Source of the DNA: Pararhizobium sp. YC-54
Lineage (GTDB): Bacteria; Pseudomonadota; Alphaproteobacteria; Rhizobiales; Rhizobiaceae
Length of the DNA stretch: 64,000 bases
Assembly (NCBI RefSeq): GCF_025847205.1
Contig: NZ_JAOYTH010000003.1
Coordinates: 124,001-188,000 of the forward strand
Direction of reading: 5' to 3'
The position numbers were made by a program, and so were the translations under genes. The number at the start of each line of letters is the position of its first letter. The first letter of the stretch is position 1. The notes under the pieces were generated by a model. The model saw only the letters and a program-made list of their open reading frames with translations. It was not told the DNA's origin and ran no database searches. Positions 21,380 to 30,511 of the stretch are shown here, piece by piece.

Positions 21380-21426
21380 CCGCGCCTCCTTTATAAATCC
21401 AAAATTGGGAAGAGGGCGCTCAATTG

Positions 21427-21531
21427 TGCCGTCTAATCCCTCCGCCGGTACAAGCCGGATCAGGTTCTTCGGGTTGGCTTCTGAAAGCCTCTCAGCCGAA
21501 CGTCCCAAGGAACGAACGGCACCCCGTTAGA
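21427..21531 (-). promoter_or_regulatory. TPP riboswitch (THI element) controlling thiBPQ
   Basis: Read on the minus strand, the leader carries the conserved TPP aptamer blocks in order: CGGGGTGCC, GGCTGAGAGG, ACCCG, GAACCTGATCCGG, then TACCGGCGGAGGGA. These are the pyrimidine-sensing (CUGAGA) and pyrophosphate-sensing helices. The aptamer ends about 50 bases before the thiB start, so it probably lowers thiBPQ expression when TPP is abundant, by masking the thiB ribosome binding site or by premature termination. Confidence 0.95.
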
Positions 21532-21760
21532 GCAGGAGGAGATTTAGACCCGGGCGAAATACTTGGCAAGGGGGAAGAACGAAGGGTGCCTTCTGCGCGC
21601 TCGGGCCTTCCCGATCGAAGGGTGATGGGCCTGCTAACGGCCCTAAGCAGCCACTGAACTGCACCTGACTTTTGCACCGAGCAAGCCATCGAATTGGCAG
21701 GGCCGAAAAGTGTGCAAAATTCTTGATTTATGCACCAAGTCGTCGTTCAAACAGACACAT

Positions 21761-21791
21761 ATTGATACGTATAGTCCGTCGACTCATCGTC
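21761..21791 (+). promoter_or_regulatory. C-box (two operators) of the restriction-modification controller
   Basis: The block reads GATACGTATAGTC (21764-21776), spacer CGTC, then GACTCATCGTC (21781-21791). Its core AGTC-CGT-C-GACT is very close to the C-boxes I recall from PvuII-type systems (GACTN3AGTC-CGTG-GACTN3GTC). Two dimers of the C protein would bind the left and right halves, the first activating and the second repressing transcription. A -10-like TCAAAT follows, and the C gene ATG is 23 bases downstream. Confidence 0.75.
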
Positions 21792-21814
21792 ATCAAATGT
21801 CCTAGCTTCGGGGC

Positions 21815-22045
21815 ATGCAAACCGACGATGAGAAAAAAATCATGAAGAACTTCGGTTCAAATGTTCGTCAGCTTCGACGCCAAAAACAACTATCACAAGA
21901 AGCCCTAGCACTATCAAGCGGGTTAGATAGAACCTATATTGGAAGCGTTGAGCGCGGCGAACGAAATATTAGTTTGATAAATATTAAGCGCATTGCGGAT
22001 GGTTTGCACATCCACACTTCAGAACTTTTCTCCTATGAGCAATGA
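21815..22045 (+). CDS. Restriction-modification controller protein (C protein, XRE-type HTH)
   Basis: A 76-residue helix-turn-helix protein: FGSNVRQLRRQKQLSQEALA, then SGLDRTYIGSVERGERNISL and INIKRIADGLHIHTSELF. Size and sequence are typical of C proteins that time expression of restriction genes. It stands directly after a C-box and its 3' end overlaps the endonuclease start by 11 bp. No good ribosome binding site precedes ATG 21815, consistent with the near-leaderless transcripts known for C genes. Base composition is markedly AT-richer than the surroundings. Confidence 0.9.
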   Translation: MQTDDEKKIMKNFGSNVRQLRRQKQLSQEALALSSGLDRTYIGSVERGERNISLINIKRIADGLHIHTSELFSYEQ

Positions 22046-22598
22046 AAGTGACGTACAGAAAGCACTGATCGAAATCATTAGTCGCTACCACGCGTCTTTT
22101 GTCTCAAAGGTCTATTCCGATGAAAACAACGATCATGATGTAATCATGGACTTGTTTGGCGTCACCCCGATTTTAAAGCGAGAAAATCGTCAATACTGGG
22201 GTAGAGAACTCGGCATGTGCTGGCAGATGATTGTTTCATCACTCTGCAAAGTGACTTGTGAAAATTATCACCCGGCAAAGCGCTTCGGCGCAGATGAACC
22301 TTACGACTTGTTAGTTGGGGACGCAGCTATCGATACTAAATATCGCATCGGCTCGGGCGATTCAGGCACACTTAAAAAATTCGAACAGTATGGCCCCCTT
22401 CTAAAAGGGGAGGGATACAATCCTGTACTATTGATTGTCAGATCAGACAATTTGTCCGCCGCCATAACAGCTTGCAAGAGCGGTGGGTGGGATGTGTATC
22501 ACGGCAAAGCTACGTTCGATTATATCGCTGAACTAACCAAATTTGATTTGTACGGGTTCCTCGATTCTCTTCGTGGCCGCTTTGTTGTCGAAAGATAA
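22035..22598 (+). CDS. Type II restriction endonuclease (probable)
   Basis: A 187-residue protein with no family I can name. The segment EPYDLLVGDAAIDTKYRIGSG fits a PD-(D/E)XK nuclease core: Asp on the first strand, then DTK in place of (D/E)XK. The preceding ELGMCWQMIVSSL helix and following LLIVRSDNLSAAITACKSGGWDV are consistent with the fold. Identity rests mainly on context: it is coupled to the C gene (ATG 22035 overlaps the C stop) and convergent with a DNA methyltransferase, the standard C-R / M arrangement. Recognition site unknown. Confidence 0.8.
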   Translation: MSNESDVQKALIEIISRYHASFVSKVYSDENNDHDVIMDLFGVTPILKRENRQYWGRELGMCWQMIVSSLCKVTCENYHPAKRFGADEPYDLLVGDAAIDTKYRIGSGDSGTLKKFEQYGPLLKGEGYNPVLLIVRSDNLSAAITACKSGGWDVYHGKATFDYIAELTKFDLYGFLDSLRGRFVVER

Positions 22599-23507
22599 GA
22601 GATCACTTGGACCCGCAAGCCTCTCATTCGAGATCTCAATACACTTTGGATCGATGTCAATTCCAGTGTAAGAAACACCATGCATTTTCGCAGCCAGAAG
22701 CGTCGTTCCGGAGCCACAAAAAGGGTCAAGTACAATATTGTCTGGGTTCTTGGGCACCAAAAGTTCAACGAGACGCTGCATCAGAGCCAAAGGCTTTTCG
22801 TTCACATGAAGATTTTCATTTTTGCCGCGCCTATTTGAAATTCCCTCAATGATATTTGACGAGAAAGAGGCGTCATCATTGATCGTCCTAAATAACCCGA
22901 CGCCATACTTCTCGACAGTTGTTTCGTAATTTCGATCTAAGGGCTTCTGCACTAGTGCGACGGCTTCCCACTCATTGCGAAAACAACTGTGCCAGCCTTC
23001 CCAATCATCTGCCGATGGGTCGTTCTTTTTTCGCAATTTAGCACTCATGTTTAGACCCTTGGGAATGCCGCTGTGACGGCGATACACCAATATGTCACGA
23101 GCGTAGAAACCAGCACGCTCCAAAGCAATCTGCACATGCGCGACTGTTCTTGTACTGTTAAAAACAGCCACAGGAGCACCGGGGCAACAAGCTTCAAAAA
23201 GTGGTGCAGCCCAGGAAAAACACCAGTCCTGATACGAATTGATATTTTCCTGAATTCGCTGATACCAACGCTTATCGCGCACCCCTCCCGCTAGATGACT
23301 TCCATACGGAATGTTTTTAACTAATGTTTTGCTATCAACAGAAGAAACGCGATTCATTCTTCGATCTATTTCTCCAGAGTCCCACTTATGACCTATAAAT
23401 TCATAGTTATAAGGCGGATCAGTTATGCATGCAGATATAGAAGAAGGTTCTATATTTCGCAAAACAGCGCAAGAGTCTCCTAATACTACGTTATTTTTAA
23501 AAATCAT
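22533..23507 (-). CDS. Type II DNA methyltransferase (beta class)
   Basis: A 324-residue amino-methyltransferase. The catalytic motif IV comes first (ITDPPYNYEFIGHKW), then a long middle section that should hold the target-recognition domain, then the C-terminal SAM-binding motif I (VLDPFCGSGTTLLAA, with GIDIDPKCIE). This IV-TRD-I order defines the beta class; DPPY occurs in both N6-adenine and N4-cytosine enzymes, so the modified base is open. Its 3' end overlaps the endonuclease gene by 66 bp on the opposite strand. The start ATG at 23507 lacks a ribosome binding site and lies close to the predicted transcription start. Confidence 0.92.
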   Translation of the reverse strand: MIFKNNVVLGDSCAVLRNIEPSSISACITDPPYNYEFIGHKWDSGEIDRRMNRVSSVDSKTLVKNIPYGSHLAGGVRDKRWYQRIQENINSYQDWCFSWAAPLFEACCPGAPVAVFNSTRTVAHVQIALERAGFYARDILVYRRHSGIPKGLNMSAKLRKKNDPSADDWEGWHSCFRNEWEAVALVQKPLDRNYETTVEKYGVGLFRTINDDASFSSNIIEGISNRRGKNENLHVNEKPLALMQRLVELLVPKNPDNIVLDPFCGSGTTLLAAKMHGVSYTGIDIDPKCIEISNERLAGPSDLLSFDNKAATKRIEEPVQIKFG

Positions 23508-23520
23508 ATTGTCATCTTTT

Positions 23521-23542
23521 ATTCTAATTGATACGTTTAGTC
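23521..23542 (-). promoter_or_regulatory. Methyltransferase promoter with a single C-protein operator
   Basis: On the minus strand a -10 hexamer TAGAAT (plus 23521-23526) lies about 14 bases before the methyltransferase ATG. Immediately upstream of it, plus 23527-23542 reads ATTGATACGTTTAGTC, which matches the left C-box operator at 21761-21776 in 15 of 16 bases. Only one operator is present. Placed between -10 and -35, it would let C protein repress the methyltransferase. Confidence 0.65.
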
Positions 23543-23706
23543 ATCATAGGTGTGGCAGCCTGCCAGTCAACGCCTTCTGCGGTTTCATCCCGCCTTTTCC
23601 ATTAAAGGTCCGTTGACGGAGCGATTATGCGTAAAACCCTGCAAATGTCCGCTAGTGGCGCAAAGCAAACCCCCATCACTTGTTTTAAGGGAGACGGTCA
23701 AACCCC

Positions 23707-25209
23707 TTACGCCACCAGCTTTTGCGGCAGCCGCACGGCCTTCAGGCTGATGGCCGAGATCAGCGCGATCAGCGAGATGCCGCCGGCCGTCAGAAACAGC
23801 GGCATGAAAGCGGCGGTATAGCTTTGCGCGACCAGCTGGCGCGTCGCTTCCGGCAGCGTCGACAGCACCAGCGGCGTCAGTTTCTCGATATCGGCGATGC
23901 CCGGGATCGCCGTCGTTCCCCGTGCGAGACCTACCGCGATGATGGCGCCGTAAATCGAGATGGCGATCGAGGCGCCGCCCATGCGCGACAGGGTGACGGC
24001 ACCGGTGGCGGCACCGACATCGCCGCGCGACGCGATGTTCTGGACGGCGACGATCGGTACCTGCTGGCCAAAGCCGATGCCGATGCCATGCAGCGCCATG
24101 ATGGCACAGATGACAAAGAGCGGCGTGCCGGGCTGGATTTGCGAGAAGATCGTCAGGGCCAGCACCGTCAGGCTGGCGCTGACGATCGCAAACGGCTTGT
24201 AGCGGCCGCTATGCGAAATCAGCCGCCCCGCCGTCAGCGAACCGCAGACGATGCCGCCGGTCAGCATGATGAACAGCAGCCCGGCGAGCGACGGCATCAG
24301 CCCGGTTGTCGTTTGCAGGAACAGCGCGAAATAATTGACCATGCCGATGCCGACGGCGCCGCTCGCCAGCGAAATCACCAGCATCAGACTGAAAGTCGGA
24401 TTGGCAAACAGCGTCAAGGGCACGATCGGTTCGGGCGCCCGCCGCTCGACAAAGACCCACGCTGCCGCGCAAACCACGCCGAGCGCAACGATCGCCAGGC
24501 TGCCGACCGAAAACAGCGAGCCGAACAGTTCGGCGCCATCGCCCAGAAGCACGGCACAGGTGACGGCGGCGGCCAGAAGCATCGCCCCGGCATAATCGAT
24601 CGCCGGACGCCGTGTCGGGCGGCGATAAGGCAGGAAGATGAACAGGCCCGCAAGCACCGCGATGCCGATCGGAATATTGATGAGAAAGATCGAACGCCAG
24701 CCGAACAGGTCGCTCATCGTGCCGCCGAGCACCGGACCGACAGCGCCGGACGCCATCAGCACGAGGCTCGAATAGCTCTGGTACTTCGCCCGCTCGCGCG
24801 GCTCGAACAGATCGGCATTGATGGAGAAGATCGACACCATGATACCGCCGCCACCGAGCCCCTGCAGCACGCGGGCGGCAATCAGCGTGTTCATCGAGAC
24901 GGCGAGCCCGCAGGCGATCGACCCCAGCGTGAAGATCGTTACAGCCGCGATCATCACATATTTGCGGCCGAACAGGTCGCCGAGCTTGCCGTAGAGCGGC
25001 ATGACGGCGCAGGTGGCAAGCAGATAGGCCGAGCCGATCCAGCCGAAGCGTTCCATCTGGCCGAACTCGCCGACGATGGTCGGCAGCGCGGTCGCAACGA
25101 TCTGGTTGTCGAGCGTCGCCATGAACAGCGCCGTCATCAGGAAGAAGAAAAGGGTCAGGCGGAGCGCGGGGCTCGATACGAGCGGCGCCGGTGTGACATG
25201 CATGTCCAT
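23707..25209 (-). CDS. DHA2-family (14-TMS) MFS multidrug efflux transporter
   Basis: A 500-residue drug:H+ antiporter of the EmrB type. It has motif LDNQIVATALPTIVGEFG in TM1, motif A GKLGDLFGRKYVMI, the GGGGIMVSIFSINADL region of TM4 and PVLGGTMSDLFGWRSIFLIN (motif C to D region). Substrates cannot be inferred. It is divergent from a MarR-family gene with a palindrome between them, which indicates local repression relieved by a ligand. Confidence 0.92.
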   Translation of the reverse strand: MDMHVTPAPLVSSPALRLTLFFFLMTALFMATLDNQIVATALPTIVGEFGQMERFGWIGSAYLLATCAVMPLYGKLGDLFGRKYVMIAAVTIFTLGSIACGLAVSMNTLIAARVLQGLGGGGIMVSIFSINADLFEPRERAKYQSYSSLVLMASGAVGPVLGGTMSDLFGWRSIFLINIPIGIAVLAGLFIFLPYRRPTRRPAIDYAGAMLLAAAVTCAVLLGDGAELFGSLFSVGSLAIVALGVVCAAAWVFVERRAPEPIVPLTLFANPTFSLMLVISLASGAVGIGMVNYFALFLQTTTGLMPSLAGLLFIMLTGGIVCGSLTAGRLISHSGRYKPFAIVSASLTVLALTIFSQIQPGTPLFVICAIMALHGIGIGFGQQVPIVAVQNIASRGDVGAATGAVTLSRMGGASIAISIYGAIIAVGLARGTTAIPGIADIEKLTPLVLSTLPEATRQLVAQSYTAAFMPLFLTAGGISLIALISAISLKAVRLPQKLVA

Positions 25210-30074: not shown

Positions 30075-30353
30075 CCGTCTCTCCGTTAGTGCCGTGACTG
30101 GCTTTGTGCGGCCGGAAATTCATTCACAAAGACATGGAAGGATAATCTTTCCGCAGGCGCATGTATATCGTTAACGTGGTCGCTGGGCACGGACATGCGT
30201 CACTCCCCTTTGCCTGAGGAGGCAGCTTTCAGCGCCCCTGCCAACGTGCTGTTTTTCAACGCCACCGCCTCAGGAAGGCGAGGCACGGCGCCCGTTTCAC
30301 CGAGATGGGCGCCGCATATTGATTCGCGCGCGGACAGGCGCTATTGAATGTTC
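30075..30353. other. Intergenic region between HWE kinase and SAM-II riboswitch
   Basis: No gene is visible in these 279 bases. They should contain the promoters of the kinase (minus) and of metA (plus). Two short complementary GC-rich patches (CCTGAGGAGGCAG near 30213, CCGCCTCAGG near 30267) could pair, but no recognised element was found. Confidence 0.5.
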
Positions 30354-30408
30354 TCGTGGTGATTTGGCCGGCCGGCTTGCAGCCACGTTAAATAAGTCGC
30401 TAAAGGGC
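30354..30408 (+). promoter_or_regulatory. SAM-II riboswitch (metA motif)
   Basis: The leader reads CGTGGTGATTTG, a GC-rich GGCCGGCCGG segment, CTTGCAGCCACG, then TTAAATAAGTCGCTAAAGGG. This is the compact SAM-II layout: a 5' GTGG paired with GCCAC and a 3' strand folding back as a pseudoknot, with the hallmark GATTTG, TTAAA and GCTAAA blocks. SAM-II is largely restricted to alphaproteobacteria and is classically found before metA. It ends about 100 bases before the metA ATG. Confidence 0.92.
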
Positions 30409-30511
30409 CGTGCGTGCGCAAGCAAGCGGGGCCGGTTGCGATTTGTCGTTGCCGGTTTTTTTTGTGCCGGCCAGTCCGAAGCCCGCTTGTTCGTAGACCC
30501 GAGTGTTGCCC

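Follow-up and report, generated by a model that had tools for sequence, protein, structure and literature searches.

A restriction-modification island of Pararhizobium sp. YC-54 with probable Esp1396I-like control: predicted operators before the controller gene and in the methyltransferase promoter

The stretch of DNA analysed here, hereafter the window, comprises 64,000 nucleotides of Pararhizobium sp. YC-54 and is part of a 498-kb contig in a genome of 6,236,573 bases. Between positions 21764 and 23570 it holds three intact genes, C, R and M, whose reading frames are all open (Table 1). The first of these is a small helix-turn-helix controller gene that lies just 5′ of R and in the same orientation, the last 11 bp of C being also the first 11 of R, as is characteristic of a Type II restriction-modification (R-M) system under the control of a C protein. 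M converges on R from the other strand, and the two genes overlap by 66 bp at the end of R (22533-22598); the M protein carries the motifs DPPY and, late in the chain, FCGSGTT, both recognized by eye. This gene order agrees with what an earlier note, made from the letters of this DNA, had described, namely C and R coupled on one strand and M converging from the other, and the sequence and coordinates given in that note match the DNA.

Table 1. Genes and predicted control elements of the island, with positions in the window.
Feature	Position	Strand	Evidence
O_L, predicted distal C operator (GATACGTATAGTC)	21764..21776	+	matrix from other genomes, 14.3 bits
O_R, predicted proximal, weaker C operator (TCGACTCATCGTC)	21779..21791	+	8.5 bits, 15 bp after O_L
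Possible -10 of the C/R promoter (TAGCTT), uncertain	21803..21808	+	by eye
C gene, 76-aa controller protein	21815..22045	+	PADLOC Control_protein, E 1.6e-25
R gene, predicted 187-aa endonuclease with D91...D100-x-K102	22035..22598	+	1527 homologues, alignment, model, fold
M gene, 324-aa N6/N4 DNA methyltransferase	22533..23507	-	PF01555, E 3.5e-26
O_M, predicted single C operator in the M promoter	23530..23542	-	11.4 bits; p 0.01 with resampled upstream sequence as background
Predicted -10 of the M promoter (TATGAT), abutting O_M	23543..23548	-	promoter-pair scan, relatives
Predicted -35 of the M promoter (TTGACT), 16-bp spacer	23565..23570	-	promoter-pair scan

The three genes are carried by a low-GC insert that sits between thiB and an MFS gene, with a GC content of 0.457 in the 1-kb bin from 22001 and of 0.508 in that from 23001, the preceding bin having 0.542 and the sequence elsewhere around about 0.6. 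The distance between thiB and the MFS gene, measured from the matched end near the TPP riboswitch to the MFS match (which in L119 covers only 61 bases), is 25-853 bp in 13 of 18 same-genus loci, no MFS match being found in the available flank of thiB in the other five, whereas here it is about 2130 bp, and for this reason the island reads as an insertion between these two genes. Among 151 genomes, its own included, R is present only in its own. The direct repeats of at least 14 nt in 21520-23740 are limited to the operator pair (16-mer, 94%) and one 16-nt pair at 81%, without any pair flanking the island. R was not found in phage records, and a relative of it occurs in 3 of 72,556 plasmid records, each with less than 60% identity; relatives of C, with at most 48% identity, are found at 20 loci on viral contigs. 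Beside the island, before thiB, lies the TPP riboswitch (21420-21536, minus strand), and elsewhere in the window there is a SAM_alpha riboswitch (30346-30423, plus strand).

With respect to solved structures, the C protein is nearer to C.AhdI (1y7y, E 5.6e-18) and C.BclI (2b5a, E 2.8e-15) than to C.Esp1396I (E 8.3e-9), and it retains the SQE motif of the first two. When it is aligned to C.Esp1396I, the RTY stretches correspond, as do GERN and NSRN, and of four DNA-contact residues of C.Esp1396I, matched by eye, T36, Y37 and R46 are identical in the protein of the window and S52 is replaced by N; the first three are residues whose part in DNA binding was tested, according to the available text of PMC4041747.

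The endonuclease, which the earlier note could not place, can be placed, as a predicted enzyme of the PD-(D/E)xK type and a distant relative of ApaLI. This position comes from a profile-profile match, in which the profile of R and that of the ApaLI-like family (PF09499) were aligned by hhalign over 174 columns, the catalytic core included (probability 95.8, E 8.2e-9), and in the alignment of R with its own relatives D91, D100, T101 and K102 are invariant across 34 sequences. At the level of single-sequence searches, Pfam, NCBIfam and the solved structures gave for R nothing, or chance matches with E of at least 0.12; R did not reach the curated Pfam cut-off for RE_ApaLI (PF09499), its own genome also being without a PF09499 match, and in PADLOC it matched REase_II in part (E 2.9e-6). 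Foldseek returned no match for the model of R at E ≤0.001, and the fold call was made via re-alignment of the Foldseek candidates, by which the fold of the EcoO109I endonuclease would be among the closest known to the modelled R. In the three ApaLI-like (PF09499) loci that were examined R and M are in tandem, whereas in the window they converge. The specificity of ApaLI is GTGCAC. A literature search found no paper on this R-M family, which is not a claim of its absence from print.

Before C there lies the two-operator C-box that had been proposed from the letters, with GATACGTATAGTC (21764-21776), CGTC and GACTCATCGTC (21781-21791) contiguous and gapless, and the 3′ ends of O_L and O_R standing 38 and 23 bp, respectively, before the ATG; the 15-bp step from one operator to the other is also found in Esp1396I. 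The 16-mer of 21761-21776 is repeated at 23527-23542 with one mismatch (94%), likewise as had been claimed. The operators were scored with a matrix built from 12 distinct sites upstream of C in other genomes, the window being left out, and in the scan of both strands of the 64 kb, a check of the kind that the earlier note had suggested, at least 11 bits (a line chosen after the value of 11.4 was known, in a scan without shuffle control) were reached only at 21764 (14.3) and 23530 (11.4), that is, in the promoters of C and M. Because this line is post hoc, and because the same matrix gave, among 16 other loci, three stray matches of 11.0-12.5 bits off the C and M promoters, in L034, L037 and L044, the case rests on the position of the second site and not on its score alone. 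The exact core GATACGTWTAGTC has two copies in the whole genome, both at this island, and three further places carry it with one mismatch; with up to two mismatches it is not commoner in the genome than its reversed control. The 16-mer pattern, itself defined post hoc, gave 2 matches with up to three mismatches, versus a mean of 0.22 in shuffles, of which 2 in 100 reached 2. Operator cores of the TATAGTC type are shared by the window and Esp1396I, as the latter appears in the available text of PMC3758141.

As regards transcription of M, the pair TTGACT-16-TATGAT (23570-23543), with 10/12, is the best promoter-like pair in 21600-23750, a region in which six pairs of at least 9/12 were found, versus 2.9 in shuffles. 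It is likely that this pair is the M promoter, with TATGAT rather than TAGAAT as its -10, and the operator would therefore abut the -10 and cover the predicted start of transcription, since O_M begins at the base right after TATGAT. For C/R the promoter is uncertain: by eye, and from the pattern of some relatives, it might be TCGACT-18-TAGCTT, with a possible weak -35 (TCGACT, 21779-21784) within O_R and a -10 that would put the transcript start at or near the ATG of C. TCGACT was the script's best -35 in five relatives (L042, L063, L067, L068 and L075), and in the window the script gave TTGATA-17-CATCGT in one scan and TTCAAA-18-TATAGT in another.

Relatives of R were confirmed 94 times in genome contigs, and the best 80 of these 94, together with 7 loci on viral contigs and the window, make up the 88 loci compared here; R and M converge in 64, are in tandem in 8, and in 16 no adjacent M was found. 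The tail-to-tail overlap of R and M, present in 59 of the 64 convergent loci with a median of 38 bp, could permit an antisense coupling of both mRNAs. C adjoins R in 37 loci (the window included), all of them convergent, and in none of the 8 tandem loci, a distribution that would fit a need for C restricted to loci in which R and M have separate transcripts; the tandem loci without an adjacent C are L046, L082, L084, L085, L088, L090, L091 and L096. A search for remnants of C in nine loci without a detected C gave nothing convincing in L030, L041, L052, L053, L059, L066 and L079. In the other two, L048 and L065 (Hormoscilla), two short C-like pieces lie in different frames just before R (E 0.001 each), and these may be a decayed C gene.

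The sequence upstream of M was read in 72 loci, over the 110 bp before the called M start. With the matrix derived from the C upstream regions, and with first-order resampled sequence as the background, an M operator at p ≤0.01 was found in 21 of the 37 loci with C and in 4 of the 35 without, although the C of one of the latter, L107, cannot be judged because that locus begins inside R; L059, L066 and L079 carry an M operator site with no C found adjoining R. To avoid counting near-copies, M was clustered at 80% identity; this gave 41 clusters when all loci were kept, and L036 and L107, whose R lies at the contig end, and L092, whose M upstream region is truncated, were left out of the count. 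Under a threshold of p ≤0.015 together with 10 bits, the operator was present in 10 of 17 with C versus 3 of 23 without (Fisher p 0.005), one mixed cyanobacterial cluster being entered in both columns, by majority without operator in each. The orientation relative to M is the same in all 26 loci whose M site has at least 10 bits. In 21 of these 26 a predicted -10 starts at most 6 bp from the start of the operator (the exceptions being L038, L043, L066, L079 and L107), a proximity for which there is no chance control and which the operator's own TACTAT favours; in many relatives the M operator itself contains the -10. Each O_M was also compared with the O_L of its own locus, and 145 identities were counted versus 137.3 for shuffled partners (p 0.0055, a value that comes from 13 distinct pairs in 18 loci and ignores kinship). 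C and O_M occur together in, among others, loci of Acetobacter (L029), Cyanobacteria (L081), Chloroflexi (L028) and Acidobacteria (L032), and in the Acetobacter locus, whose M is the most similar (70%), TTGACA-16-TATGAT is followed by GACTATAAGTATC, in the same layout as in the window. In L035 and L040 the M operator abuts the called start codon of M, and the M mRNA would be nearly leaderless.

On the side of C, 14 relatives have a pair of operators 15 bp apart, with O_L placed 37-41 bp before the ATG in 11 of them and 20-22 bp in L032, L035 and L064. Only one box of at least 6 bits precedes C in L028, L058, L089 and L095, and in 3 of the 37 loci (L040, L081 and L087) none was found up to 110 bp from the C start as called, despite the presence of O_M. 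Conversely, 16 of the 37 loci with C have no significant O_M in the 110 bp next to the M start as called. Two of these (L037 and L069) have a strong site further upstream, and 10 of the 16, L037 included, are Microcoleus-type cyanobacteria whose C promoter bears two strong boxes 17 bp apart. An extra C operator was recognized in 14 cyanobacterial loci (L031, L033, L034, L037, L038, L044, L045, L047, L049, L050, L054, L055, L057 and L060), in which two boxes are 17 bp apart and a third follows 15 bp on, with a score of at least 6 bits in L050 and L055 and recognized by eye in the other 12; in 10 of the 14 no M site within 110 bp reaches 10 bits, L037 having one further upstream. An extra upstream C-box is also described for cyanobacterial C-REase fusions, in the available text of PMC3850674.

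Among R-M systems, Esp1396I is the one in which the timing of both enzymes by a single C protein has been studied. In our view it is highly probable that the island is a horizontally acquired, intact Type II R-M module under a dual control of this kind; the gene order, the operator sites and the recurrence of the M operator in relatives of several phyla all support the Esp1396I-like wiring that had been claimed for it. The best reading of the sequence is that the module would work like Esp1396I, while its kinship would be nearer to AhdI and BclI in C and, distantly, to ApaLI in R. C.AhdI itself is not known to act outside C/R, and in AhdI the methyltransferase M.AhdI keeps its own gene in check. 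In Esp1396I the C/R genes and M are convergent, with the M operator at the transcription start, and its C protein, unusually, also represses M by binding at the M start site (available text of PMC4041747). The convergence of C/R and M, the double operator before C and the single operator at the start of M, predicted in the window, are common to both systems; by contrast, Esp1396I is plasmid-borne, according to the accessible part of PMC3758141, and the module of the window is on the 498-kb contig.

If we accept this reading, C would first activate and then limit C/R, and it would repress M. On entry of the module, M would be made immediately from the constitutive promoter TTGACT-16-TATGAT, and C would initially be produced in very small amounts. 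Once a C dimer sat on O_L, it would recruit RNA polymerase to the weak C/R promoter, with the SQE motif touching sigma, and R would therefore rise only after M. As C accumulated, a second dimer would occupy O_R and shut C/R down, and a dimer on O_M, just past the -10 and over the predicted start, would block the transcription of M. To our knowledge, R-M modules spread only if protection precedes cutting. The binding of C, the activation, the repression and their timing, as well as the activity and the specificity of the enzymes, are predictions made here from the DNA.

It is unlikely that C controls the C/R operon only, the copy before M being a relic or too weak in this strain. Such a reading would agree with the O_M of the window being the weakest (11.4 bits) of the 25 sites with p ≤0.01, with the existence of the Microcoleus-type group, which has C but no O_M, and with Csp231I, in whose M promoter a weak C-box-like sequence was not bound by C, as far as the available text of PMC4824078 goes; however, O_M abuts the -10 of the M promoter, it shares with its own O_L a G (GATACG) that the 12 training sites all lack, and the two operators of L029, O_L and O_M, have one and the same sequence.

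A different arrangement of the same control, with the operator between the -35 and the -10 and C still repressing M, follows from the earlier note, in which TAGAAT (23521-23526, minus strand) was taken as the -10 of M. This hexamer does abut the 16-mer, as was said, and it has 5/6 positions of TATAAT, but its role as -10 did not hold up: by eye no acceptable -35 is seen 16-18 bp from it, and the promoter scan lists no such pair. As TTGACT-16-TATGAT scores best in the region, and as its layout recurs in L029, TAGAAT is probably not the -10, and we consider this arrangement quite improbable. That the module is non-functional, with R or M inactive and the operators left over from a decaying island, is very improbable indeed, for although decay of R happens in the family, as five relatives with a stop inside R indicate, no such stop was seen in the window, where the C, R and M frames are all open and the residues of R that are invariant in the alignment are present.

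The dual control that we prefer for this module extends beyond it, in that the wiring called unusual for Esp1396I recurs, as judged from predicted operators, across a widespread R-M family, and it is this family-wide recurrence of the M operator that constitutes the added value of the analysis. We would propose, tentatively and with the balance falling slightly against it, that the control of M by C is ancestral and common in this large, mostly undescribed family, with the operator on the -10 of M, and that the cyanobacterial branch has been rewired. If this were true, the family with such control would span Pseudomonadota, Cyanobacteriota, Chloroflexota and Acidobacteriota, and the cyanobacterial branch would have gained a further C/R operator and mostly lost the M operator, in other words, the circuit would have been rewired in nature. 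The relatives, with an M operator that is retained, shifted, multiplied or lost, would be natural variants with which its contribution could be tested, and as such they would bear on its role in establishment and in the balance between M and R.
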